A stretch of 64,000 bases of DNA, taken from NCBI GenBank assembly GCA_020724465.1, contig DYGX01000011.1:101262-165261 (forward strand), read 5' to 3'. The position numbers and the translations under genes were made by a program. Shown here one piece after another: positions 39,130-54,123 of this stretch. Within the stretch, counting starts at the first letter, position 1. The number at the start of each line of letters is the position of its first letter. The stretch comes from Thermoflexus sp. Lineage in GTDB: Bacteria; Chloroflexota; Anaerolineae; Aggregatilineales; Aggregatilineaceae. The notes beneath the pieces were generated by a model. That model was not told the origin of the DNA. It did not search any database and worked only from the letters and a program-made list of their open reading frames with translations.

Positions 39130-39156
39130 TCGACCAGACCAGGGTTGAGGGGAATC

Positions 39157-40188
39157 ATGCGGCCAGGGCACCAGGAAGACCGATCCGGCATTGCGACCAT
39201 CCGCGATGTGGCGATCGCGGCGGATGTCTCGATCGCAACCGTGTCGCGGGTGATCAACGGCACGCGCTACGTCAGCCCGGACCTGCGTGCGCGCGTTCTG
39301 AACGCCATGCAGGCGCTGGGCTACCAGCCGAACGCGATCGCGCAGGGGTTGCGCCGCCAGGCGACTCATTCGGTGGGGCTGCTGGTGCCGCGCATCAACG
39401 AGCCGTTCTTCAGCCAGTTCGCCTTTGCGCTCGAAAAGACGTTATTCTCCAGCGGCTACCGCACCCTGGTGTGCAGCACCGAAGAAAGCCCGGAAAAAGA
39501 GCAGGCGTACGTGTCGATCTTGCTCGGCCAGCAGGTCGATGCGGTGGTGTATTTCCCGTCCATCGCCGGCAGCGACGACAATGTCGCGCGCCTGATCGAG
39601 CGGTCGGTGCCGGTGGTGGTCGTCGAGCGGCAATTGGCGGGCTTTGAGGTCAGCCAGGTGCTGGTGACCAACTTCCAGGGCGGCTACGATGGAGTCCGGC
39701 ATCTGGTCGATCTGGGCCACCGGCGGATCGGCGTGATTTGCGGCAGCCTGGACAATATCCCGCACGAACGGTTGGGCGGCGCGCAGCAGGCGGCGCTGGA
39801 ATCCGGCGTGAACGCCGACATTCGCGTGATCGACGCGCTGCCCGACTTCAAGACTGGCTACGATGCCGCGCTGGCAATGCTTCGCGACAGGCCGCGCCCA
39901 ACCGGGGTCTTCGCGCTCACCGACTCGATGGCGGTCGGCGTGCTGCACGCCGCGGCGGAGCTGGGGCTGCGTGTGCCGCAGGATCTGTCGATTGTAGGGT
40001 TCGATAATATCCCGCTGGTGTCGTTTCTGATCCCGCCCCTGACCACGATCGCGCAGCCTATCTACACCATGGGAGAGACGGCGGCGCGCATCCTGCTGCA
40101 GCAGCTTGAAGGCGGCGACCCTGGTCCGCAGACGGTGCTGCTGGAGACCGAGCTGATCGAGCGTGCCTCAACCGCCACGCCCGGCTAG
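39157..40188 (+). CDS. LacI-family regulator, probable repressor of the inositol locus
   Basis: A 343-residue regulator. HTH and hinge: [27 protein letters not shown] and LGYQPNAIAQGLRRQ. Effector domain: VGLLVPRINEPFFSQFAFALE, VVVVERQ, FALTDSMAVGVLHAAAELGLRVPQDLSIVGFDNIP. ATG 39157 is preceded by GAGGGGAATC; the TTG at 39145 is less likely. Its stop overlaps the stop of the convergent aldolase gene within CTAG. A LacI-type operator lies in the aldolase-iolA intergenic region one gene away, making this the likely regulator of inositol catabolism in place of the DeoR-type IolR of Bacillus. Confidence 0.92.
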   Translation: MRPGHQEDRSGIATIRDVAIAADVSIATVSRVINGTRYVSPDLRARVLNAMQALGYQPNAIAQGLRRQATHSVGLLVPRINEPFFSQFAFALEKTLFSSGYRTLVCSTEESPEKEQAYVSILLGQQVDAVVYFPSIAGSDDNVARLIERSVPVVVVERQLAGFEVSQVLVTNFQGGYDGVRHLVDLGHRRIGVICGSLDNIPHERLGGAQQAALESGVNADIRVIDALPDFKTGYDAALAMLRDRPRPTGVFALTDSMAVGVLHAAAELGLRVPQDLSIVGFDNIPLVSFLIPPLTTIAQPIYTMGETAARILLQQLEGGDPGPQTVLLETELIERASTATPG

Positions 40189-41159
40189 CCGCCGAAGCCC
40201 GGATAGCTTGCGTACCAGTCGACCGCCAGATCGGGCGGCGCGACCTTGCGACGCCAGTCGACGGCGCTCTGCGCCACAATCGACGCCAGCCGCGCCATGC
40301 GTTCGCGCCCGGTCGAGCGCAAGAACTGCTCGCGCGCATCGCCGAAAAGGGTGGTTGCTTCAGCCCATACTGCGCGCCCCACGATGACTCCGCTGGCACC
40401 GGCGGCGCAGGCCAGCTCGACCTGACGCTCGAAGGTCGCGTAGTCCACCCCCGCGCTCAGCAGCGCCCAGGGGACCCGGCAGGCGGCGTTCAGCTCATCG
40501 AGCGCGTCGCGCCAGATGGCCTCGTCCGGTTCCTGTTTGACATCGACCGGGAACTCCGTTTTCAGCACGTCGATCCCCATCCGGCTGAACATATCCGCGT
40601 TGTTGACGACGGCCTTGCGTCGCCCGGCCGGGCTGAGCGGACGCGACGGATCGGGTGAGAAGACGAGCGGCTCCAGGAAGAACGGGATATCCCAGCGCGC
40701 GCAGTCCTCGACGATGCGGGCGACAGCGTCGCGCTTGGCGTCGGCGTCGGGAGCATCCGGGTGATAGAAGAGCAGCAGCTTGACGCCCGCGCCCCCGGCC
40801 CGCTTGATTTTCTCGACCGACCAGCCGGGGATGAACGCAACACCCCGCTCGTGCGGTTGCACGTCGTAGTTGGTCACCTCGATGGGTGAGAGAAACCCCT
40901 GCTGCCCGCTGAGGATGGATTGGGCGATGGCGGGGCCGAACCCGTAGCCCGGATCGGCCAGCACAGCGCTGCACGCCGGGCCAAGGTGAGCCATCACCTG
41001 GAGCTTGAACGCGCTGAAGTCGGCGTCCGACAAGGGGGCCGGGGCGTGCCGGTTGAGGCTGGCGAGCAGATTTCCGCGGTGATCGATGGCGAGGATGACG
41101 AAATGCCCGGCGGGGGTGCTGGTCTGGGCAAGGTGGCGATATTTCCCTGGGCTGGTCAT
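40185..41159 (-). CDS. LacD-family class I aldolase, candidate 2-deoxy-5-keto-gluconate-6-phosphate aldolase
   Basis: A Schiff-base aldolase of the tagatose-1,6-bisphosphate aldolase (LacD/YihT) family. Signatures: FVILAIDHRGNLLASL near the N-terminus, AVLADPGYGFGPA, GVKLLLFYHPDA, FFLEPLVFSPD, and DVLKTEFPVDV with candidate catalytic lysine K200; ending AGASGVIVGRAVWAEA. Length 325 is typical. I choose ATG 41159 because AAGGAG is eight bases ahead; the ATG at 41165 would leave only two. It is divergent from iolA and no FbaA-type iolJ is in the locus. It therefore most likely performs the IolJ step, producing dihydroxyacetone phosphate and malonate semialdehyde for IolA. This functional call is inference. 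Confidence 0.75.
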   Translation of the reverse strand: MTSPGKYRHLAQTSTPAGHFVILAIDHRGNLLASLNRHAPAPLSDADFSAFKLQVMAHLGPACSAVLADPGYGFGPAIAQSILSGQQGFLSPIEVTNYDVQPHERGVAFIPGWSVEKIKRAGGAGVKLLLFYHPDAPDADAKRDAVARIVEDCARWDIPFFLEPLVFSPDPSRPLSPAGRRKAVVNNADMFSRMGIDVLKTEFPVDVKQEPDEAIWRDALDELNAACRVPWALLSAGVDYATFERQVELACAAGASGVIVGRAVWAEATTLFGDAREQFLRSTGRERMARLASIVAQSAVDWRRKVAPPDLAVDWYASYPGFGG

Positions 41160-41211
41160 AATCATGTCTCCTTAGGGTGGGTGCGCACCGGGCGTGTGGG
41201 GTGCGGCCCGC

Positions 41212-41238
41212 TTGACAAGCGGTCAAAACTGGTATAGT
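41212..41238 (+). promoter_or_regulatory. Candidate promoter of the iol operon
   Basis: TTGACA at 41212-41217 and TATAGT at 41233-41238 (15-base spacer, shorter than optimal), just upstream of a LacI operator. TAGTCT at 41235 would give a 17-base spacer. Confidence 0.45.
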
Positions 41239-41242
41239 CTCA

Positions 41243-41256
41243 GGAAAACGTTTACA
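41243..41256. promoter_or_regulatory. LacI-type operator of the iol operon
   Basis: GGAAAACGTTTACA contains the perfect palindrome AAACGTTT and the central CG of LacI/GalR operators. It follows the putative -10 and would block iolA transcription; it is also placed to affect the divergent aldolase gene. Confidence 0.6.
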
Positions 41257-41322
41257 TATGGTTTGTGCCGTCCAGTTTAATGCGTCTCGTCACCGCACGC
41301 AATCAGTCATTGAGGATCGGCC

Positions 41323-42798
41323 ATGAACGAGCGCCAGATTCGCAATTACATTAACGGCCACTGGCATTACTCCGCTTCTTCTTCCCGACTCGACGTCATC
41401 AACCCGGCCACTGCCCAGACGCTCGCGCGGGTGGCGCTGTCGCCTGCGGATGAGGTCGCCGCCGCTGCTGAGGCCGGGCACGCCGCTTTTCTGGAGTGGC
41501 GCCGGGTGCCTGTCGGCGAGCGCATCCAGCCGCTGTTTCGCCTCAAGGCTCTGCTCGAGGAGCATCTAGACGAGCTGGCCCGCATCGTCACCAACGAGTG
41601 CGGCAAGACCTACGCTGAGAGCGTCGGGGAGATCCGGCGCGGGATCGAAAACATCGAAGTCGCGTGCGGAACCCCGATCCTGATGCAGGGCCACAACAAT
41701 GAGAATATCGCACGCGGCATCGACGAGCACATGATTCGCCAGCCGCTCGGCGTGGTCGCGGCGATCACGCCGTTCAACTTCCCGGCCATGATCCCGCTGT
41801 GGTTTCTGCCCTACGCGGTGGCGACCGGTAACGCGTTCATCCTCAAGCCGAGCGAGCGGGTGCCGATGGCGAGCGAGCGACTGTTCGAGTTGATCGACCA
41901 GGCCGGCTTCCCACCGGGGGTGCTGCAACTGGTCAACGGCAGCAAGGACACGGTGGACGCGCTGCTCGATCACCCGCTGGTTCGAGCGTACAGCTTCGTT
42001 GGTTCGACGCCGGTCGCGCGCTACATCTACCGCCGCGCGGCGGAGAACGGCAAGCGCGCGCAGTGCCAGGGTGGGGCGAAGAATCCGGTTGTGATCATGC
42101 CGGATGCCGATATGGACATGACCACGCGCATCATGGCGGATTCGGCTTTCGGATGTGCGGGACAGCGTTGCCTGGCTGCCTCGGTCGCCATCACGGTCGG
42201 TGAGGCGCGTCACAGCTTCACCGAGCGCATCGCCGACGCGGCGGTGAGCCGCAAGGTGGGCTACGGCCTTGATGACGGCGTGGAGATGGGGCCGGTGATC
42301 AGCGCGGCGAGCAAAGAGCGGATCGAGCGGCTGATCGAGCAGGGCGCGCGCGAGGGCGCCGGGCTGCTGGTCGATGGCCGCGGCAAGCGGGTTGAGGGCT
42401 ATGAAGACGGCTACTTTGTCTTCCCGACGATCTTGACCGATGTCCCGCCGCACAGTGAAGTCGCGCGGACCGAGATCTTCGGTCCGGTGCTGAGCCTGAT
42501 GCACGCCGAGACTATCGACGAGGCGATTCGCCTGGTCAACGATCGCGCCTACGGTAACATGGCGTGCATCTTCACCTCGGACGGGGCGGCGGCGCGGCGC
42601 TTTCGCAACGAAGCGCACGCCGGCAACATCGGGATCAACATCGGCGTTGCGGCGCCCATCGCCTACTTCCCGTTCAGCGGCTGGGGCGAGAGCTTCTTCG
42701 GCGATCTGCACGCCCAGGCGCGGCACGGCATCGAGTTCTACACCCAGACGAAAGTCGTCATCGAGCGCTGGCCCAGGCAGTGGAGCCGCCAGTTCTAG
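41323..42798 (+). CDS. iolA: Methylmalonate/malonate-semialdehyde dehydrogenase (CoA-acylating)
   Basis: Converts malonate semialdehyde to acetyl-CoA at the end of inositol breakdown. An aldehyde-dehydrogenase-superfamily protein of 491 residues with the MMSDH features: [10 protein letters not shown] at the N-terminus, [58 protein letters not shown] in place of the ELGGK motif (family-typical absence of the general-base Glu), and catalytic C283 in GCAGQRCLA. The C-terminus has [19 protein letters not shown] and [17 protein letters not shown], also typical. First gene of a seven-step iol operon behind a LacI operator. Confidence 0.94.
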
Positions 42799-42812
42799 GG
42801 GGATGAGCCGCC

Positions 42813-43841
42813 ATGACGCAGCCGCAGGGGGCAAAGCAGTTCGATCTGTTAAACATCGGCCGCAGCTCCATTGATTTGTATTCGAACGACGTCGGCGCGC
42901 CGTTCGTCGAGATCACGAGCTTCGCAGCCTATGTCGGCGGCTCGCCGACCAACATCTGCGTGGGCGCGCGCCGTCTGGGGCTGAACACCGCTCTGCTCAC
43001 CGGCCTGGGTGAAGACCCGGTCGGTGATTTTATTCTTCACTTCCTGGAGCAGGAACGCGTCGAGACGCGCTATATCGTGCGCAAACCGGGTCACCGTACC
43101 AGCGCCGTGCTGCTCGGCATCGAGCCGCCGGACAAGTTTCCCCTGGTTTATTACCGCGACAACTGCGCGGATATCGAGATCACGATCGATGACGTGCTGG
43201 CGGCGCCGGTGCAGGACGCGCAGGTGGTGCAGTTCGCGGGGACCAACTTCTCAAAGGATCCCAGCCGCAGCGCGACGATCTTCGCGGCGGAACTGGCGCG
43301 CCGGTCTGGGGCGAAAGTTGTGCTCGACATCGACTTCCGTCCCGATCAGTGGCACGACCCGCGCGCCTTCGGTGTGGCGATCCGCTCGGTGCTGCGCCAC
43401 GTGGATGTGGTGCTGGGCACGCAGGATGAGATCAACGCCGCCATGCTGACCGATCCATCTCAGATGAGTCTGACGCACTCGCAGGTATCGGACACAAAAG
43501 TGCGCGGGGATATTGAAGCCGCGATTGCCGGGCTGCTGGCGCTCGGCCCCGAGGCGCTGGTCGAGAAGCGCGGCGAGCAGGGGGCGCGTGTGCACTTGCG
43601 CGGCGGCGAGGTGATCGACGTGCCGGGCTTTCCGGTAGAAGTCTACAACATCCTGGGCGCGGGCGACGCGTTTGGCGCCGGGTTCCTGTATGGCTACATC
43701 AAGGGGTGGGATTGGTACCGGGCGGCGCGGCTGGGCAACGCCTGCGGCGCGATCGTCGTCACCAAGCACGGCTGCGCGAACTTTATGCCCACGTTTGACG
43801 AAGTGATGGCGTTTGTGGCGGGTTACGGCGGGCTGGACTGA
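42813..43841 (+). CDS. iolC: 5-dehydro-2-deoxygluconokinase
   Basis: PfkB-family sugar kinase that phosphorylates 5-dehydro-2-deoxygluconate. Motifs: FDLLNIGRSSIDLY and FVEITSFAAYVGGSPTNICVGARRLGL at the N-terminus (GGSPxNxA type 1 signature), DIDFRPDQW, GTQDEINA, and the PfkB type 2 signature NILGAGDAFGAGFLYGY with catalytic Asp. Length 342; it lacks the C-terminal DUF2090 aldolase-like extension found fused to IolC in some bacteria, which fits with a separate LacD-type aldolase nearby. Spacing to iolA is 14 bases. Confidence 0.94.
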   Translation: MTQPQGAKQFDLLNIGRSSIDLYSNDVGAPFVEITSFAAYVGGSPTNICVGARRLGLNTALLTGLGEDPVGDFILHFLEQERVETRYIVRKPGHRTSAVLLGIEPPDKFPLVYYRDNCADIEITIDDVLAAPVQDAQVVQFAGTNFSKDPSRSATIFAAELARRSGAKVVLDIDFRPDQWHDPRAFGVAIRSVLRHVDVVLGTQDEINAAMLTDPSQMSLTHSQVSDTKVRGDIEAAIAGLLALGPEALVEKRGEQGARVHLRGGEVIDVPGFPVEVYNILGAGDAFGAGFLYGYIKGWDWYRAARLGNACGAIVVTKHGCANFMPTFDEVMAFVAGYGGLD

Positions 43842-43851
43842 GGACGACACA

Positions 43852-44739
43852 ATGCAATATACATCCGAGACGATGCTGATTCGCTCGCAAGACACCGGTA
43901 ACACAGGTGTATTCGCGGAAGTGCGGGCCGAGCAGGCGGGCTGGGAGTTCCTCAACATGCAGGTGCGCCGTCTCAACCGGGGCGAGCGCTGGGCGCACGC
44001 GACCGGCGAGCACGAATACGCGCACGTGATCCTGGGCGGGCGCTGCACGATCCGAACCAGCCAGGGTGATTTCGCGAACATCGGGCGCCGCCCGGATGTG
44101 TTCAGCGGGATGCCCTACGCGCTCTATTTGCCGCGGCGGACCGACTTCGAGATCGAGGCGTTCACCGACGGCTTCGAGGTGGCGACCTGCTGGGTGCCGA
44201 CCGACGAAGATCACCCGGCGCGGCTGGTCACGCCCTGGGATAGCGCGGTCGAGTTGCGCGGCGGCGGCAACGCATCGCGCCAGATCAACAGCATCATTCC
44301 ACCGGGCTTCGACTGCCACCGGATCGTGGCGGTCGAGGTCTATACGCCCAGCGGCAACTGGTCGAGCTACCCGCCGCACAAGCACGACGTTCACCGCGTG
44401 GACGAGCGGGGCAGCCTGCTCGAAGCCGACCTTGAGGAAATCTACTTCTACAAATTCGACCGGCCGGGCGGCTACGCCTACCAGCGGGTTTACAACGAGG
44501 ATCGCAGCATCGACGGCCTGATGCTGGCCCAGCAGCACGACGTGGTGCTGGTGCCCGAAGGCTATCACCCGGTGGTCAGCGCGCACGGCTACACAACCTA
44601 CTATCTGAACTTCCTGGCCGGGTCTGCCCAGTCACTGGCAAACAGCGACGATCCAGACTACGCGTGGGTCAAGGCGACGTGGACGTTTATCGATCCGCGG
44701 CTGCCGGTGGTTGATCTCGGCATGGAGCCGCGGCGTTAG
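43852..44739 (+). CDS. iolB: 5-deoxy-glucuronate isomerase
   Basis: Isomerises 5-deoxy-glucuronate to 2-deoxy-5-keto-gluconate. A bicupin of 295 residues with family hallmarks: GWEFLNMQVRRLNRGE, GEHEYAHVILGG, WSSYPPHKHDVH (metal-binding His cluster), EEIYFYKFDRPGGYAYQRVY and YHPVVSAHGYTTYYLNFLAG. ATG 43852 follows the iolC stop by ten bases with GAGG as ribosome site. Confidence 0.95.
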   Translation: MQYTSETMLIRSQDTGNTGVFAEVRAEQAGWEFLNMQVRRLNRGERWAHATGEHEYAHVILGGRCTIRTSQGDFANIGRRPDVFSGMPYALYLPRRTDFEIEAFTDGFEVATCWVPTDEDHPARLVTPWDSAVELRGGGNASRQINSIIPPGFDCHRIVAVEVYTPSGNWSSYPPHKHDVHRVDERGSLLEADLEEIYFYKFDRPGGYAYQRVYNEDRSIDGLMLAQQHDVVLVPEGYHPVVSAHGYTTYYLNFLAGSAQSLANSDDPDYAWVKATWTFIDPRLPVVDLGMEPRR

Positions 44740-44756
44740 GAAAAGCGAGGCGAGCG

Positions 44757-46622
44757 ATGGCGACCAAACGACTGACAATGGCGCAGGCGCTGATTCTGTT
44801 CCTGCAAAATCAGTACGTCGAGCGCGACCGGCGCGAGAATCCGTTCTTCGCGGGCTGCTGGGGGATCTTCGGGCATGGCAACGTGGCGGGGATCGGCCAG
44901 GCGCTCCAGCAGTATGCAGATACGTTCCGCTATTACCAGACGCGCAATGAGCAGGCGATGGTTCACACGGCGGTGGCCTACGCCAAGATGAAGAACCGCC
45001 TGCAAACCTTCGCCTGCACGACTTCGATTGGCCCCGGCGCGACCAACATGCTCACCGCTGCGGCGGGCGCGACCATCAACCGCATCCCGGTTCTGCTGCT
45101 GCCGGGCGATATCTTCGCCGAGCGGCGACAGGCGCCCGTGCTCCAGCAGCTTGAGTCCGAGCACTCGCAGGATGTCTCGGTCAACGACTGCTTCAAGCCA
45201 ATCTCGCGCTACTGGGACCGGATCAACCGCCCGGAGCAGTTGATCACCGCGTTGCCCGAAGCCATGCGCGTGTTAACCTCGCCCGCCGAAACCGGCGCGG
45301 TGACGCTGGCGCTGCCGCAGGATGTGCAGACGATGGCCTACGACTACCCGGCCGAGCTGTTCGAAAAGCGCGTGTGGCATATCCCCCGCAACCGGCCGGA
45401 CGTCGACGCGCTGCGCCGCGCGGCGGAGTGGATCCGCCAGAGCCGTCAGCCGCTGATCGTGGCCGGGGGCGGGGTGCTGTACAGCGAGGCGACCGAGATT
45501 TTGCGCCGCTTCGTCGAGCAGACCGGGATACCCGTCGGCGAGACGCAGGCGGGCAAGGGCGCGCTGCCCTACGATCATCCGGGCGCCCTGGGCGCGATCG
45601 GCACGACCGGGACGCTGGGCGCAAACATCCTGGCGCGCGAAGCCGATCTGGTGATCGGGATCGGGACGCGCTACAGCGACTTCACCACCGCTTCGAAGAC
45701 CGCCTTCCAGCATCCAGACGTGCGTTTCATCAACATCAACGTGGCCGAGTTCGACGCCTACAAACACAGCGCGATCCCGCTGGTGGGCGATGCGCGTGTG
45801 ACGCTGGAAGAGCTGTTGACCCTGCTCGAAGGCTGGCAGGTCAGCGCCGGGTACCGGGCGCGCGCGGCGCAATACAACCGCGAGTGGGACGCCGAGGTGC
45901 AGCGCATCTACTCTCTGGAGCACGGGCCGCTGCTCAGCCAGGGCGAGGTGATCGGCCTGGTGAACGCCTTCTCGCGGCCAGAGGATGTTGTGCTGTGCGC
46001 GGCGGGCAGCCTGCCTGGCGACCTGCACAAGCTGTGGCGCACGCGCGATCCGAAGGGCTATCACCTCGAATACGGCTATTCGTGCATGGGCTACGAGATC
46101 CCCGGCGGGATCGGCGTGAAGATGGCCGCGCCGGAGCGCGAAGTCTACGTCATGGTGGGCGATGGCTCGTATCTGATGATGCCCAGCGAGATTGTGACCG
46201 CCGTCCAGGAGCGGCTGAAGATCACGATCATCCTGCTGGATAACCACGGCTTCGCCAGCATCGGCGGGCTGTCGGCCAGCGTCGGCAGCGGCGGATTCGG
46301 CACGCACTATCGCTACCGCACCGAGGATGGACGGCTTGAGGGCGACGTGTTGCCGATTGACTTTGCGGCTAACGCGGCCAGCCTGGGCGCAAAGGTGCTG
46401 CGCGCTGATTCGCGCGATGCCCTGGCCGAGGCGCTGGCGGCGGCGCGCGAGCATCAAGGCGGGCCGGTGTGTATTGTGGTCGAGACCGACCGCGAGCAGC
46501 GTGTGGGTGGGTACGAAAGCTGGTGGGATGTGGCCGTGGCTGAGGTGTCGGAGAACCCCGATGTGCAGCGGGCACGCGCCGAATACGAAGCGGCCAAGGC
46601 CAAAGAGCGTCATTACCTGTAG
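44757..46622 (+). CDS. iolD: 3D-(3,5/4)-trihydroxycyclohexane-1,2-dione hydrolase
   Basis: ThDP-dependent ring-opening enzyme of myo-inositol catabolism. 621 residues with the N-terminal [19 protein letters not shown] and [17 protein letters not shown], the acidic ThDP activator in [27 protein letters not shown], the central domain ([15 protein letters not shown]) and the C-terminal ThDP motif [15 protein letters not shown] ... [18 protein letters not shown]. All parts match IolD. In operon with iolB (17-base gap). Confidence 0.96.
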
Positions 46623-46662
46623 GTCATTTTTGGGGCGGGACTACCGCGGAGAGAATTCACCT

Positions 46663-47571
46663 ATGACGTACACGTTTCGCGTCGCAAACGCGCCCTGCTC
46701 GTGGGGCGTGCTGGAGTTCGACCTGGAAGGCGAGGCCGCCAGTTACGAGCAGGTGCTGGACGAAATTGCCGAGACCGGCTATGCCGGCACGGAGCTTGGG
46801 GACTGGGGCTTTATGCCGACCGATCCCGCCACGCTGCGCGCCGAGCTTGACCGGCGCGGCCTGGCGCTGCTGGCGGCGTTTGTGCCCGTGGCGCTGTCGC
46901 AGGCGGACCAGCACGCCGCAGGCGAAGAAGTTGCCGTCCGGACGGCGCGCCTGCTGGCCGACACCGCCGGGCCGGAGTGTTTCATTGTGCTGGCGGATGA
47001 TAACGGCAAGGTTCCGCTGCGCACGCAGAACGCCGGGCGCGTCACCCCCGAGATGGGCCTGAGCGACGCCCAATGGCAGGTGTTCGCCGAGGGCGTCAAT
47101 CGCATCGCGCGGGCCGTCAAAGAGCAGACCGGCCTGCGGACGGTCTTCCACCACCACTGCGCGGGGTATGTCGAGACTCCGGCAGAGATCGACCGGCTGA
47201 TGGCGCTGACCGACCCGTCGCTGGTTGGGCTGGTGTGCGACACCGGTCACGCCATGTTCGGCGGCGGCGACCCGCTGGAACTGCTGCGCCGCTATCCGGA
47301 GCGCATCTGGCACGTTCATTTCAAAGACTTCGATCCGGCGGTGGCCGGGCGGGCCAAAGCGGAGAACTGGGATTACTTCGGCGCGGTGCGGCACGGCGTG
47401 TTTTGCGAACTGGGCAAGGGCGCGGTTGATTTTCCGGCGGTGGCCGCAGAGATGGCGAAGATCGGCTACAACGGCTGGATCGTGGTCGAGCAGGATGTGC
47501 TGCCGTCGATGGGCCAGCCGAAGGAAAGCGCCCGCCGCAACCGCGAATATCTGCGCAGCATTGGCATCTAG
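46663..47571 (+). CDS. iolE: Myo-inosose-2 dehydratase
   Basis: Dehydrates 2-keto-myo-inositol to the diketone used by IolD. A xylose-isomerase-like TIM barrel of 302 residues: [13 protein letters not shown] (family N-terminus), [57 protein letters not shown] and [14 protein letters not shown], giving the E, D, H and E metal ligands. ATG 46663 is 40 bases after iolD; GCGGAGAG precedes it. Confidence 0.95.
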
Positions 47572-47615
47572 GAGACTTTCACCCCGAGAGGGGCTGCAGA
47601 GGGCAGGTGGTTGAT

Positions 47616-48623
47616 ATGACCGTCAATCTTGGCGTGATCGGCGCCGGGCGGATCGGCAAGGTTCATGCGGAGAATCTCGTCTATCGCATTCCTGAGGCGC
47701 GCGTGACGGCGATCGCGGATGTGCGCCTGGATGTGGCGCGGTCGCTTGCCAGCACGCTGAATATCCCGCTGGTGACGGCGGACTACCGGGACGTGCTCGC
47801 CAGCCCGGACGTTGACGCGGTGCTGGTCTGCTCGTCGACCGACACGCACAGCGAAATCATTGAAGCGGCGGCGCGCGCCGGCAAGCATATCTTTGCCGAG
47901 AAGCCGATCGATCTGGACCTAGCAATCATCGACCGCGTGCTGGCTGCCGTGGCGCAGGCGGGTGTGAAGTTCTTTGTCGGGTTCAACCGGCGCTTCGACC
48001 CCACCTACGCCCGCGTTCACGAGGCAATCCACAGCGGCATGCTGGGCGAGGTCCATCTGCTGCACATCATCAGCCGCGATCCCTCGCCGCCGCCGATTGA
48101 GTATGTCAGGGTTTCCGGCGGCATCTTTGTGGACATGATGATCCACGACTTCGATATGGCGCGCTTTCTGGTGGGCAGCGAGGTTGAAGAAGTCTACACC
48201 CGCGCCGCGGTGCGTATCGATCCACGCATCGGCGAGGCAGGCGATGTCGATACCGCCGTGGTCATGCTGACCTTTGCCAACGGCGTGATCGGGACGATCG
48301 ACAACAGCCGGCAGGCTGTCTATGGCTACGACCAGCGCGTGGAAGTGTTGGGCAGCAAGGGCGCGGCCTCGACCGGCAACGTCTATCCCAACCAGGTGAC
48401 GTTCAGCACAGCGTCGAGCATTTGCCGCGACCTGCCGCTGAATTTCTTTATGGAACGCTACACCGAGAGCTACGAGCGCGAAATGCGCGCTTTCGTCAAG
48501 TCGATCGTCGAAGACACACCGCCGCCGGTCGGGCCGTCCGATGGGCGCATCCCGGTTGTCATGGCGCTGGCGGCAAAGAAGTCGCTGCTCGAAGGGCGTC
48601 CGGTCAAGCTCAGCGAGATTTAG
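47616..48623 (+). CDS. iolG: Inositol 2-dehydrogenase
   Basis: NAD-dependent oxidation of myo-inositol to 2-keto-myo-inositol, the first catabolic step. Gfo/Idh/MocA family, 335 residues: LGVIGAGRIGKVHAENLV nucleotide-binding loop, CSSTDTHSEIIEAAARAGKHIFAEKPID with the catalytic-motif lysine, GFNRRFDPTYARVH, and GGIFVDMMIHDFDMARFLVG with the conserved Asp and His. GTG 47607 is an alternative start. Last catabolic gene; a hairpin and the transporter genes follow. Confidence 0.92.
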   Translation: MTVNLGVIGAGRIGKVHAENLVYRIPEARVTAIADVRLDVARSLASTLNIPLVTADYRDVLASPDVDAVLVCSSTDTHSEIIEAAARAGKHIFAEKPIDLDLAIIDRVLAAVAQAGVKFFVGFNRRFDPTYARVHEAIHSGMLGEVHLLHIISRDPSPPPIEYVRVSGGIFVDMMIHDFDMARFLVGSEVEEVYTRAAVRIDPRIGEAGDVDTAVVMLTFANGVIGTIDNSRQAVYGYDQRVEVLGSKGAASTGNVYPNQVTFSTASSICRDLPLNFFMERYTESYEREMRAFVKSIVEDTPPPVGPSDGRIPVVMALAAKKSLLEGRPVKLSEI

Positions 48624-48847: not shown

Positions 48848-50197
48848 ATGCAAGCACGTCGTATTCTCCCCCTGTTACTGGTCACCGCGTTGATTCTGTC
48901 CCTCGCGCCGCTTTCAGCGGCACTCGCGCAGGAAACGGTCACAATCCGGATCCGCTGCAAGTCCACACCACCGACCGAAGACTGGCGCTGCAATAATTTT
49001 GCCGAGGTTGAGGAAGAAGTTGAGGCTGCTCTGGGCATCGACCTGAACCTGGTGCTAATCCAGGACAACGCCGCCTGGGGCGACTATAAGCAGGAATTCC
49101 AGCTTTCGGCGGAAGCCGGCCAGGCGGTGGATATCATCCTGTCCGGCCACGAAGACATCGGCGCCTGGTCGGCAGCCGGGTTCATCATCCCGCTGGACGA
49201 TCTGATCCCGAACTATCCGGAGTTCGAGGATGTCGTCCCCAGCCTGTGGGAGTCGATGAAAGGGCCAGACGGCAAGATTTACGGCATTCCGCAGGACGCC
49301 GAGGCGCGCCCGATGTATTTCAGCAAGCTGCTTTTGAGCGACCTGGGCTGGAGTGATGAGGAGATCGAGGCGCTGCCGGAGCGTATCGCCAGCGGTGAGT
49401 TCACCATGGCCGATCTGTTCGACGTGGCCGAGCAAGCTGTCGAAGAAGGCGTCGTCGAAGAGGGCTATGGCTTCTGGCACCGCCCGGTGAATGGCGGCGA
49501 CTTCCTGTATTTCTACTACGGGATGGGCGGCGAAGTCCTTGACGAGAATGGTGCGCTTGTTTTCGATCAGGATGCCGCGCTGAAGGTCTTCCAGATGCTC
49601 GAAGAGGCGCGCAACCGCGGCATCATGAACGGCTCGCATCTGGGGATCGAGTGGCCGGACTGGCACACGACGGTCGCGCCGGGCGAGCGGGTTCTGTTCG
49701 CTGCCGGTGGTACCTGGTTTTGGGGAGACTGGGCGGTGAACTATGTCGCGGATCGCGGCGGCGAGGAGTATCTGTGGGAGAACATCGGCTTCGCGCTGAT
49801 CCCGGCGATGGAGACCGGCCGGCCGATTACCCTTACTCATCCGCTGGCGTACATGGTCAGCTCCAGCAGCCAGCATCCGGACGTGGCGATGGCGCTGATC
49901 GCGGCGATCACCACGCCCGAAGCCAACAACCGCCACGCCATCGGGAGCGCTCACCTGGGCATCCTCAACGCGCAGCTTGAGTCGCCGGATTATCAGGCGA
50001 GCGAGTTCCTGGCTAAGGCTCACCCGATGCTTGACTTCACGACGTTCTTGCCGAATCACCCGAGCTGGGGCGCCTGGTCTGAGGCGTACTGGACCGGGAT
50101 CGAAGCCGTCGAGAGCGGCGAGCTGACCGCTGAAGCGGCGCTGGCCGTGGTTGTGGACCGGCTCCAGAATGAGGTGCCTGGGATCACCATCCGCTAG
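48848..50197 (+). CDS. Extracellular sugar-binding protein of an ABC transporter (MalE-like)
   Basis: Captures a carbohydrate, plausibly inositol or a derivative given the adjoining iol genes, for import by the three genes downstream. 449 residues with a signal peptide (LLVTALILSLAPLSAALAQ) but no clear lipobox cysteine. The mature part has the layout of family 1 solute-binding proteins: AEAGQAVDIILSGHEDIGAWSAAGFIIPLDDLI, YGIPQDAEARPMYFSKLLL, YLVSSSSQHPDVAMALI-like region and C-terminal LAVVVDRLQNEVPG. AAAAAGGAG precedes the ATG. Substrate is inferred from context only. Confidence 0.88.
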   Translation: MQARRILPLLLVTALILSLAPLSAALAQETVTIRIRCKSTPPTEDWRCNNFAEVEEEVEAALGIDLNLVLIQDNAAWGDYKQEFQLSAEAGQAVDIILSGHEDIGAWSAAGFIIPLDDLIPNYPEFEDVVPSLWESMKGPDGKIYGIPQDAEARPMYFSKLLLSDLGWSDEEIEALPERIASGEFTMADLFDVAEQAVEEGVVEEGYGFWHRPVNGGDFLYFYYGMGGEVLDENGALVFDQDAALKVFQMLEEARNRGIMNGSHLGIEWPDWHTTVAPGERVLFAAGGTWFWGDWAVNYVADRGGEEYLWENIGFALIPAMETGRPITLTHPLAYMVSSSSQHPDVAMALIAAITTPEANNRHAIGSAHLGILNAQLESPDYQASEFLAKAHPMLDFTTFLPNHPSWGAWSEAYWTGIEAVESGELTAEAALAVVVDRLQNEVPGITIR

Positions 50198-50353: not shown

Positions 50354-51421
50354 ATGGCAAACCAGCGATCCGTTGTACAAGATGCCGGCCTGGCTGGCGA
50401 GCAGGGCACGGCTGTTCTGGCGCGCAGCCGGCGCCGGACGCTGCGCGCGCAGCTCACGGCCTATGGGTTTCTGGCGCCCGCCGGAATCCTGGTCATCCTG
50501 TTCTTCTTCATTCCGATGCTCCTGATCTTGTTCCTGAGCATCACCAATCTGTCGACCACCAACTTCACGACGGACATCGTCCGGATGCTGCGCTCGGATC
50601 TCGATATTGATCTGGTCTCGTTCCGTTTCGTGACCGACCAGCCAGCGTACATTGTGGGGTTCGACAATTTTGAGCGCATGTTCCGCGACGAGTTCGCGCC
50701 CAAGATCCTGTTCAACACGCTTTTTTACGTCTTCTGTACGCTGGCGTTTTTCAACGTCGGGCTGGCGCTGGTGATCTCGCTGCTGACCACGCACATCGAC
50801 CGGCGCGCCGGGTTCTTTTTCCGCGCGTTGTGGATTCTCCCGCGCATCACCTCGCCCGCCGTGTATGTGCTGATGTGGCGGCGGATCATTGCCGCGGCGC
50901 CGTTCGGAATCCTCAACCAGTTCAACGAGCTGGCGGGCCGCTCGGAGGTGAATTACTACCAGGACCACCCCTGGGTCTTCGTGATCCTGGTGAACGGGTT
51001 CATCGGCGCATCGTTCGGCATGATCATCTTTACATCCGCGATTGAGTCAATTCCCAAGGACCTGCTCAATGCCTCGCTGGTCGATGGCTCGTCCGTCTTC
51101 CAGCGTATCCGGTACGTGATCCTGCCGCTGCTGCGCTGGCCGCTGTTGTTCGTCGTGACGTACCAGACTCTTTCGCTGCTCACCTCGTTCGAGTACATCC
51201 TGCTGCTCACAGGAGGCGGTCCTGGGTTGTACCAGACTGAGGTGTGGTCGTTGACCGCTTATAACCGCGCGCTGAACACGTATTTCGCCAACGCGCAGTG
51301 GGGCTATGGCTCCGCGTTTGCGGTGGTGCTGGTGATCATCGGCGTTGTCATGGCTATTGTGTACATGCGCGCGTTCCGCTTCAACGAGCTGGTGGCCGAG
51401 CCAAAGATCGAGGTGCTGTGA
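50354..51421 (+). CDS. Sugar ABC transporter permease, MalF-like
   Basis: Membrane subunit of the importer. 355 residues with six main hydrophobic helices (GFLAPAGILVILFFFIPMLLILFLSI; LFNTLFYVFCTLAFFNVGLALVISLL; and others). The EAA loop is AIESIPKDLLNASLVDGSSVFQRIRYVILPLLRWP, followed by LLTGGGPG typical of MalF-like permeases. A roughly 60-residue loop between helix 1 and helix 2 (MLRSDLDIDLVSFRF) is longer than in minimal family members. Its TGA overlaps the ATG of the second permease by one base. Confidence 0.92.
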   Translation: MANQRSVVQDAGLAGEQGTAVLARSRRRTLRAQLTAYGFLAPAGILVILFFFIPMLLILFLSITNLSTTNFTTDIVRMLRSDLDIDLVSFRFVTDQPAYIVGFDNFERMFRDEFAPKILFNTLFYVFCTLAFFNVGLALVISLLTTHIDRRAGFFFRALWILPRITSPAVYVLMWRRIIAAAPFGILNQFNELAGRSEVNYYQDHPWVFVILVNGFIGASFGMIIFTSAIESIPKDLLNASLVDGSSVFQRIRYVILPLLRWPLLFVVTYQTLSLLTSFEYILLLTGGGPGLYQTEVWSLTAYNRALNTYFANAQWGYGSAFAVVLVIIGVVMAIVYMRAFRFNELVAEPKIEVL

Positions 51422-53028
51422 TGGCGACGGCGACTCCTCAACACGAGCCGTACATGGGTTCCCCAGCCGACGACCTAGCGTTCGAACGCATCAGCACCGG
51501 CGAGCTGGTGTTCCAGGCCGTCTACAGCGCCCTGGTCACGGTGATGCTGCTGGAGATCGGCGTGATTGTATTTCGGGTGCTGGAGCCGCTGGTGCATCAC
51601 GCGCCGGCGCTGTTCGGGTCCGGCGCGACCATCGACGAGACGTTCACCCGCACGATCGGCAACGCGCTGATGACGCTCGCGCCGTTCCTGGCTTACGCGG
51701 TGGCCGGGCACAAGATGAAGCCGCTGGCGTCGGTCAACCGGGCGCGCGCTTTGGGCGCGGCGCTTGCGGCGGCGGCGATTGTGTTCGTGCTGGTGACCAT
51801 GGGCCAGTACGTCTTTCGGATCGGCCCCTTTGCCGAGCGCCCGTCGCTGGAGATGACTCTGCGCCAGACCGATGCCGGCATTCTGGTTGAGGAAGTTGTG
51901 TCTGGTGGGACGGCTGACCGCGCCGGGATCCGCCCTGGGGACCGGATCACCGCTATTCGCCGCGTCGAAGTGACGCTGGCCGAGTTGAACACAGCGGTCC
52001 GGCAGTCGAAGGTGGGCGATGTGATCCGGCTGCGGGTCGAGCGCGGCGACGAGGAAGAGCAGTTCCCGGTTGAGGTCGCAGCGACGATGGAGATCCGCCC
52101 GGCGGCGCTGGTGGCCGGGTTGGTGATCGCCCTGCTGTTTGCGGCGGTGGCGGTGTTCTGGCCAGGCGGTTGGACGCCCTATGCGCTGTTGATCGCGATC
52201 ATGCTTCCGCTGGCGGTCGGGTACCTGTGGCTGATCATCGCCACCTTCTCCTTCCGCACCGAAGGGCTGTTGCCGGTGAACGCTCAGGGCGAAGTGGGCG
52301 GGCTGACACTGCGCAACTGGGAGTTTTTGTGGCGCGAGGCGACCGGGTCCAATCCCAGTATCTGGCGCGTCACGCTGAACACGCTGGTCATCGCGACCGC
52401 GATGATGGCGATCGTGCTGCTGGTGTCGTCGATGGCAGGCTATGCGCTGTCGCGCATGAACTTTCCGGGGCGGCGCACGTTTCTGTCGCTGACGCTGATC
52501 CTGCACGGGTTCCCGGCGGTGACGCTGCTGATCGCCATCTTCTTCGTGCTGCGCAACATCGGGAACATACCGGTTCTGGGCGACTACTTCGGCTTCAACA
52601 CGCGCGGCGGGATCGCGCTGGTGATGGTGGCGTTTGAGCTGCCGCTCGGCGTGTGGCTGATGAAGGGCTTCTTCGACGGCATCCCGTGGGATATCGAGCG
52701 ATCGGCTCTGATCGACGGCGCGTCGCGCTGGCGCACCTTTTATGAGATCCTGCTGCCACAGATTCGCCCGGGGCTGCTGGCGTTGGGGATATTCGCGTTC
52801 ATTTCCGGCTGGGGTGCCTACCTGATCCCGCAGACGTACAGCATTGGGACCAAGACCGCGACGCTGGCGGTCTACATCAACCAGCTTACTTCGGACACGG
52901 CGCCGGTGAACTGGAATGAGATCGCGGCCGTCGGCCTGTTTCAGATGCTGCCCGTGTTCTTGCTCTTCATCTTCGCGCAAGAGTATCTGCTGAACATCTA
53001 CGCGGGTGGCACGAAAGGTAGCTCATAG
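51421..53028 (+). CDS. Sugar ABC transporter permease (MalG-like) with inserted PDZ domain
   Basis: Second channel subunit with an unusual architecture. Residues 1-135 contain about three extra hydrophobic segments (VYSALVTVMLLEIGVIVFRVL, TLAPFLAYAVAG, LGAALAAAAIVFVLVTMGQYVF). A PDZ domain follows at about 151-219: DAGILVEEVVSGGTADRAGIRPGDRITAIR, then the beta strand VIRLRVERGDEEEQFPVEV. Two helices (228-247, 253-275) and a standard MalG-type permease come next, with EAA loop GIPWDIERSALIDGASRWRTFYEILLPQIRPG (about 420-450) and C-terminal QEYLLNIYAGGTKGS. Typical MalG proteins are about 280-300 residues; this one has 535. The PDZ domain would lie between helices; its side of the membrane cannot be decided. 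Start overlaps the previous stop (TGATG). Confidence 0.9.
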   Translation: MATATPQHEPYMGSPADDLAFERISTGELVFQAVYSALVTVMLLEIGVIVFRVLEPLVHHAPALFGSGATIDETFTRTIGNALMTLAPFLAYAVAGHKMKPLASVNRARALGAALAAAAIVFVLVTMGQYVFRIGPFAERPSLEMTLRQTDAGILVEEVVSGGTADRAGIRPGDRITAIRRVEVTLAELNTAVRQSKVGDVIRLRVERGDEEEQFPVEVAATMEIRPAALVAGLVIALLFAAVAVFWPGGWTPYALLIAIMLPLAVGYLWLIIATFSFRTEGLLPVNAQGEVGGLTLRNWEFLWREATGSNPSIWRVTLNTLVIATAMMAIVLLVSSMAGYALSRMNFPGRRTFLSLTLILHGFPAVTLLIAIFFVLRNIGNIPVLGDYFGFNTRGGIALVMVAFELPLGVWLMKGFFDGIPWDIERSALIDGASRWRTFYEILLPQIRPGLLALGIFAFISGWGAYLIPQTYSIGTKTATLAVYINQLTSDTAPVNWNEIAAVGLFQMLPVFLLFIFAQEYLLNIYAGGTKGSS

Positions 53029-53040
53029 GGAGACGGACCG

Positions 53041-54123
53041 ATGCGGATTGCGCTTGAACATCTGACCAAGAAATTTGGACACGTCGTCGGCGTTGAGGAT
53101 GTGAGTCTCGACATTCGCGATGGTGAGTTTGTGGCCTTTCTCGGCCCGTCCGGCTGTGGCAAGACGACCACCCTGCTGATGGTGGCGGGTATCTATCGCC
53201 CGACGGCGGGGATCATCCGCTTTGGGGACCGGGTGATGAACCAGGTTGCGCCCAAGGATCGCAACATCGGGATGGTTTTCCAGAGCTACGCGCTCTACCC
53301 GCACATGACGGTTTTCGGCAATATCGCGTACCCGCTGAAGCTGAAAAAAGTTCCCAAACAGGAACAGATCGCCCGTGTCCAGGCGGTGGCGGATAAGATG
53401 GGGATCGGCGATTTGCTCGATCGGCGGCCGGGCCAGCTTTCGGGCGGGCAGCAGCAGCGTGTCGCGCTCGGGCGCGCGCTGGTCAAGCAGCCGGATGTGC
53501 TGTTGTTCGACGAGCCGCTCAGCAACCTCGACGCGCGGCTGCGGCTGGTGATGCGCGCCGAGATCAAACATTTGCAGAAGGAGCTGGGCATCACGTCGAT
53601 TTACGTGACGCATGATCAGGTCGAAGCGATGACGATGGCGGATCGCATCGCGGTCATTCAGAACGGGCGGCTTCAGGCGTTCGACACGCCCGACGACCTG
53701 TACGACCGCCCGAAGACGCTGTTCATTGCGGGGTTCGTCGGCAACCCGCCGATGAACTTTGTGGATGTTGAGATCGAACAGGCTAACGGTGCGTATTATG
53801 CCGTCAGCCCTGCGCTGCGAGTCGAGGTGCCGCCGGATCGTGGAGCGGCGGCAGCGGCGCACGGCGGGCGCGTGGTGATGGGCATTCGCCCGGAGGATAT
53901 CACGATCGATCCTACAGGCGCGGTGCGCGGGCGCGTGTTTGTGGTCGAACCGCTTGGGCGGGATGACCTGCTCGACGTGGAGCTTGACGCCCACACGCGC
54001 CTGCACGTCCTGGCCGATCCGAAGCTGAAAGTCGGTGCGGGAGATCCCGTCTTGCTGAAACTGGACACGCAGAAGGTGCAGTTCTTCGACGCTGCAACAG
54101 AGCGATCGCTGCTGTGGCAGTAG
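53041..54123 (+). CDS. Sugar ABC transporter ATP-binding protein (MalK/UgpC type)
   Basis: ATPase for the importer. 360 residues: Walker A GPSGCGKTT at 35-43, Q-loop VFQSYALYPHMTV, signature LSGGQQQR at 133-140, Walker B VLLFDEP ending at 159, D-loop SNLD and H-loop H191. The C-terminal TOBE/OB-fold regulatory region (VVMGIRPEDITID, AVRGRVFVVEPLGRDDLLDVEL) is the MalK type. It completes a MalEFGK-like set and ends three bases before a convergent gene. Confidence 0.95.
   Translation: MRIALEHLTKKFGHVVGVEDVSLDIRDGEFVAFLGPSGCGKTTTLLMVAGIYRPTAGIIRFGDRVMNQVAPKDRNIGMVFQSYALYPHMTVFGNIAYPLKLKKVPKQEQIARVQAVADKMGIGDLLDRRPGQLSGGQQQRVALGRALVKQPDVLLFDEPLSNLDARLRLVMRAEIKHLQKELGITSIYVTHDQVEAMTMADRIAVIQNGRLQAFDTPDDLYDRPKTLFIAGFVGNPPMNFVDVEIEQANGAYYAVSPALRVEVPPDRGAAAAAHGGRVVMGIRPEDITIDPTGAVRGRVFVVEPLGRDDLLDVELDAHTRLHVLADPKLKVGAGDPVLLKLDTQKVQFFDAATERSLLWQ

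Follow-up and report, generated by a model that had tools for sequence, protein, structure and literature searches.

What would a PDZ domain do inside a membrane-spanning subunit of an ABC importer? The question arises from PermG, the second permease subunit (535 aa, 51421..53028, + strand) of a transporter encoded in the window, by which we mean the whole stretch of 64,000 nucleotides under analysis. Its gene is one continuous frame, with a start codon that overlaps the stop of the preceding permease gene, PermF, by one base (TGATG), and Pfam and PDB searches identify its parts. PermG exceeds the usual MalG-type permease of about 290 aa and six helices, and in the AlphaFold2 model four extra helices precede the core. 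Added helices 1-3 (residues 26-60, 73-97 and 107-132; 51496..51816, +) come from that model, with block pLDDT of 61-97 across residues 21-140; hydropathy detects segments 33-51 and 110-128 and leaves helix 2 under its threshold, and the basic loop GHKMKPLASVNRAR that joins helices 2 and 3 is compatible with a cytoplasmic side. The PDZ domain follows at residues 138-222 (51832..52086, +), as placed by Pfam, the AlphaFold2 model and fold searches. Pfam gives a PDZ_2 match over residues 145-219 (E 6e-11, 42.8 bits, cut-off 27) and two other PDZ models above cut-off, and the structure prediction for the insert gives a PDZ fold, so that the initial annotation is borne out on this point by domain match and predicted fold alike. 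Added helix 4 (residues 227-246; 52099..52158, +), seen by hydropathy and AlphaFold2, leads into a MalG-type core from about residue 249 to 535 (52165..53025, +). The core is recognised by Pfam (BPD_transp_1, residues 336-523, E 2e-13, 50.8 bits against a cut-off of 26.4), by a PDB search that aligns residues 259-533 to MalG (E 9e-25), and by relatives, most PDZ-less ones aligning to PermG only from residue ~248-257 onward. Foldseek returns 3puz_G as the best match, fold searches on PermG being informative for little besides the PDZ part. Residues 426-446 of the core (ERSALIDGAS...ILLP) form the EAA-type coupling loop; across 54 aligned rows E426-A429, I431-A434, R436, R438 and P446 are invariant and the other positions of this loop nearly so.

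The architecture is not confined to the window. Among 7999 candidates scored, 1192 are PermG homologues at E <= 0.001, and the 120 homologues listed have lengths of 486-555 aa, 97 of them with a precomputed PDZ Pfam entry. A set of 80 loci, from at least 584 relatives in genome contigs, falls into two groups: in 41 loci (L009-L049) the N-terminal part is included in the match, whereas in 39 (L050-L088) the match starts no earlier than residue 198. This second group consists of orthologous permeases, mostly 290-310 aa, with matches to the solute-binding protein (SBP), PermF and the ATPase where the contig allows. Of 154 genomes from the window's order, 51 have a PermG match at E <= 1e-60 and the other 103 have none at that threshold; the match starts no later than query residue 70 in 49 of the 51, while one (G483) is truncated by a contig end and one (G016) is PDZ-less. 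At the level of the class, matches occur in 60 of 396 genomes, and here all 13 from the same order extend back to residue 64 or before, whereas all 47 from outside it begin at residue 218 or later, so that none of the 47 has the PDZ part. In a 400-genome sample of the phylum the N-terminal 250 aa of PermG reach 520 bits against its own genome; no other genome exceeds 44 bits, and those alignments mostly cover the PDZ. Protein searches with the PDZ region are swamped by HtrA-type PDZ domains and are a weak test for free-standing or otherwise fused copies. With one continuous frame, Pfam matches to both PDZ and permease core, and retention in relatives, the embedded PDZ domain proposed from the window is genuine, and the fact that 49 of the order's 51 matching genomes share it makes an artefactual fusion unlikely, as had been argued.

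How the domain was acquired is partly visible in a permease-core tree of the 80 rows, built by a quick method, in which one change explains the PDZ label (SH-aLRT 94). No secondary loss of the PDZ is seen in this tree, the PDZ-less form within the order being a sister branch. That branch is L078, the nearest PDZ-less row to the PDZ clade (SH-aLRT 98), which belongs to the window's order since it is identical to the G016 contig; with so long a branch, its position is uncertain. The L078 permease (L078:1415-2524, on the same contig as L290) has its first core loop extended by ~80 residues, two stretches of which are hydrophobic, a different elaboration at what is probably the docking side. One locus labelled Bacteroidetes, L048, nests within the PDZ clade and is likely a mis-binned contig.

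PermG is encoded as one of four genes, all on the + strand, in the order SBP (48848..50197), PermF (50354..51421), PermG and ATPase (53041..54123). The SBP has a plain signal peptide (ALA|Q) and lacks a lipobox, PermF is the first permease subunit and of MalF type, with no P2-like domain seen in domain searches, and the ATPase is of the MalK/UgpC type. The full set is present in 35 of the 41 PDZ loci; the incomplete ones lack a match to the ATPase (three), to the SBP (two) or to both SBP and PermF (one), several of the contigs being short. Inositol catabolic genes adjoin the transporter (41323..48623, +): IolB (43813-44739, +), IolD (44757-46622, +) and IolG (47607-48623, +) score above their NCBIfam cut-offs, an IolE-like gene (46657-47571, +) falls under its own, and IolA-like (41323-42798, +) and IolC-like (42813-43841, +) genes are named by a reading of their translations only. 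With a LacI-type regulator (39145-40188, +) and an aldolase-like gene (40185-41165, −) they make up a complete-looking inositol catabolic locus (39145-48623) that runs into the transporter genes. This neighbourhood does not extend to the homologues at large, for which an adjacent iol or sugar locus had been put forward as a check: iol genes were found at just one of the 41 PDZ loci (L009), several other contigs being short. The JGI annotation of several PermG homologues reads 'inositol-phosphate transport system permease', and it is through such labels and the iol genes of the window that the system is likened to InoEFGK, the inositol importer named for Thermotoga maritima (PMC3750489). In one spirochaete locus (L087:8432-11025) the transporter is of the PDZ-less form and iolD- and iolE-like genes lie close by, which suggests an inositol link for the wider transporter family.

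A further property of the PDZ loci concerns how the SBP is held at the cell surface. None of the 36 SBPs with a readable start in the PDZ loci has a lipobox (5 of 41 are unreadable, and for L015, where the gene is split over two frames, the first part was taken). Among PDZ-less loci outside the spirochaete group a lipobox is found by rule in 20 of 24 readable cases, 8 of 32 being unreadable; in two of the four cases missed by the rule, L054 and L055, a clear lipobox lay beyond the stretch searched and was added by eye, L051 has an atypical AAQC, and L074 is without its start. The spirochaete group (seven loci, one labelled Desulfurobacterium) has a lipobox in none of three readable SBPs. That the PDZ substitutes for the lipid anchor of this particular SBP was considered and rejected on controls with other SBPs, which show lipobox absence to be general in the order and to include the PDZ-less sister: a lipobox was missing from 29 of the 30 own-genome SBPs examined, from 30 of 30 in three related PDZ genomes and from 19 of 19 in the genome of the PDZ-less sister, whereas two Caldilineaceae genomes have one in 29 of 30. 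The SBP loci taken for these controls were 30 of 31, 30 of 144, 30 of 171 and 19 of 19 matches, those of the order being L089-L118, L187-L216 and L271-L289. Frames were chosen by length; L196 (PDZ set) and L234 (other set) look to be in the wrong frame, and L211, L212 and L285 are without a clear signal peptide, all doubtful frames being counted as lipobox-free. Lgt is detected in the own genome and in all 20 relatives searched. Unanchored SBPs are by these controls general in the order and, on the tree, predate the gain of the PDZ; their absence of a lipobox does not single out the PDZ transporter, and PDZ and missing anchor are linked by setting, with no one-to-one exchange between them.

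The reading that we favour, tentatively, is that the PermG PDZ serves as an outward docking domain for an unanchored SBP, in the manner of the P2 domain of MalF. By predicted topology the PDZ, lying between added helices 3 and 4, would be placed outside the cytoplasmic membrane, where it would contact the soluble SBP of its own importer as P2 does MalE, and this contact would raise the local concentration or dwell time of an SBP that has no lipid anchor. Because the added helices are four, an even number, they keep the MalG-like orientation of the core, which we assume from MalG topology, and so put the PDZ on the SBP-docking side; from this analogy we infer the outward orientation of the PDZ, and likewise its SBP contact and the effect of that contact. 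Both P2 and the PDZ are then folded domains on the outward side of a permease. P2 sits between the third and fourth helices of MalF and has a fold other than PDZ, and it is on the MalF subunit whereas the PDZ is on the MalG-type subunit, which makes the PDZ an analogue at most; further, the contact with MalE is established for P2, in contrast to the SBP contact supposed for the PDZ. For the maltose importer, contacts of MalE with MalF-P2 and with MalG-P1 are named in the Daus 2007 title cited in PMC3150292, which itself has MalG residues 70-72 directly contacting MalE, and PMC3328499 speaks of high-affinity MalE binding by that importer.

The clade that gained the PDZ also changed elsewhere in the transporter. 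Relative to the PDZ-less relatives, insertions amount to 6-7 residues in the PermG P1 loop, three in a PermF loop, one in the ATPase and none in the SBP. The P1 insertion, in the loop after the first core helix, lies at residues 304-309 (52330..52347, +), and the surrounding stretch W300-V317 spans 14-20 aa in each of the 41 PDZ rows; of the 39 others, 38 have 12-13 aa there and L078 has 93. The PermF insertion is at residues 76-78 and is longer still in some members of the clade, and that of the ATPase is residue 275. Taking MalF/MalG topology as the guide, the lengthened PermG and PermF loops probably both face outward. Deletions of the clade affect the linker columns after SBP position 23, single SBP residues after 63 and 325, and one place near the PermF start. 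Fixed differences between PDZ and PDZ-less forms, in a count that omits the spirochaete-group rows included in the insertion and deletion comparison, number five in the SBP, five in PermF (one within the insertion), nine in the PermG core and one in the ATPase. A docking patch on the SBP was sought, and the five fixed differences (130, 313, 353, 361 and 446, known as sequence positions only) are all that 449 columns offered. For docking one can count that PermG is kept with its partner genes, that conservation is higher in the PDZ than in the added helices, that the insertions fall in permease loops that probably face outward, and that a lipobox is absent throughout the readable PDZ loci; against it count the other lipobox-free importers of the order, which in the two genomes searched with PDZ_2 do without a PDZ, the few SBP changes, and the position of the most conserved PDZ residues outside the usual peptide groove. 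In its broadest form, an order without lipid-anchored SBPs in which the outward PDZ of one importer captures a soluble SBP as a new mode of retention, the proposal is possible and rather doubtful.

The main rival to docking is that the PDZ acts within the transporter as a brace or gate, set on the lengthened PermG P1 and PermF loops and stabilising or gating the permease with no external ligand; this we regard as a possibility of some weight, if less than probable. It draws on the insertions that the same clade has in both permease loops, on the scarcity of SBP changes, and on where the PDZ is most constrained. R181 is invariant and R180, R203, R205, R208, E211 and Q214 are each present in 51-53 of 54 rows, all of them residues outside the usual peptide groove. 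The loop changes would fit a remodelled docking face equally well, however, and the core model is not confident enough to argue a contact. The groove itself is the concern of a third reading, an unlikely one, in which it binds some other protein of the envelope, for instance a protease of the HtrA type or a surface protein, and couples transport to quality control or attachment. The nearest known relatives of the PermG PDZ are indeed the PDZ domains of HtrA/Deg proteases, the PDZ proteins encoded by the own genome include some with a trypsin-like GNSGG motif and one with four PDZ matches and a signal-like start, and the presumed pocket positions stay hydrophobic (143, 189 and 193 in 54 of 54 rows, 145 in 52). 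On the other hand, no protease was recognised among those recurrent transporter neighbours that could be identified from their sequence starts, and the carboxylate-binding loop is atypical. That loop we equate with SLEM, residues 142-145 (51844..51855, +), as the counterpart of GLGF, with the help of the start of the PDZ_2 match, and its third position is normally Gly; the 54 rows have Q in 38, E in 12 and G in 4, the window having E. Loss of this Gly weakens the argument that C-terminal peptides are bound in the classic way, though not that for a PDZ fold, and the usual peptide mode looks altered as far as residues can tell.

The same loop bears on the suggestion, made when the domain was first noticed, that it recruits the C-terminal peptide of the binding protein. 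The SBP tail is conserved and is the sole operon partner tail that would lie outside the membrane. Yet in the SBP model (mean pLDDT 93.6) the last C-terminal block is ordered (pLDDT 96), and the tail in PDZ loci ends in R, K or Q and resembles that of PDZ-less relatives, so it is unlikely to be a PDZ ligand; with Q or E for the loop Gly in 50 of 54 rows, we hold classical binding of the SBP tail to be highly improbable and do not retain that suggestion. Drift, with the PDZ as a lineage-specific addition that has no transport role, would suit a single change on the tree confined to one order, and is improbable too given that 49 of the order's 51 matching genomes retain the domain, that no secondary loss appears among the 80 rows, and that its conservation exceeds that of the added helices. 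Of the parts compared, the core has the lowest mean column entropy (0.62), followed by loop 61-72 (1.23) and the PDZ (1.44), with added helices 1-4 highest (1.62-2.06), which argues that the PDZ is under constraint.

Set against known systems, the components of PermG are familiar and their combination, a PDZ domain in an ABC importer permease, appears new. The MalG of MalFGK2-E (PDB 2r6g, 3puz) shares the core and the same kind of four-gene system, and differs in its 296 aa, with neither a PDZ nor the four added N-terminal helices. The closest known PDZ domains, those of the HtrA/Deg family (HtrA2, DegQ, DegP, DegS, HhoA), differ from that of PermG, which has no protease domain, bears Q or E in place of the loop Gly in most rows, and stands between the membrane helices of a transporter. 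In GlnPQ-like importers binding domains are fused to the permease (PMC8025302), so that there the binding domain itself is joined whereas in the PermG system a PDZ is fused and the SBP remains separate, both being possible means of SBP retention. No description of a PDZ-bearing ABC permease was found in literature searches that covered few subscription papers. The main text of a survey of 7,852 microbial PDZ proteins (PMC6411480), where 93% fall in 12 families and 88% of those classified have protease domains, contains neither 'transporter' nor 'permease', and within this coverage the initial annotation's remark that it knew of no such permease holds. PermG would, if true, be the first ABC importer permease with a PDZ domain, and a PDZ borne by an importer would widen the known roles of bacterial PDZ domains. 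It opens the testable question of how an importer functions with a free SBP, not a lipid-anchored one, in cells of an order that we presume to have one membrane (monoderm), and the orthologous transporters with and without the PDZ provide a natural comparison set.

PDZ proteins of other kinds accompany PermG in these genomes. In a PDZ_2 search of two genomes, PermG is in each the sole transporter among the PDZ proteins found, the others (nine and seven open frames) including trypsin-like, HExxH-type and multi-PDZ proteins. The frame L186:1229-2839 of the own genome (contig C28) encodes a protein of 537 aa, signal-like at its start, in which PDZ is matched four times; the first of these domains is the best-scoring other PDZ of that genome against the PermG PDZ (44% over residues 137-209), and from this resemblance a PDZ of the L186 type is a possible donor. 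None of the other long permease frames of the own genome is among the PDZ_2 matches; two of its permease-like frames, L183:1034-2191 and L185:769-1926, both 386 aa, have apparent extra N-terminal helices and no PDZ.
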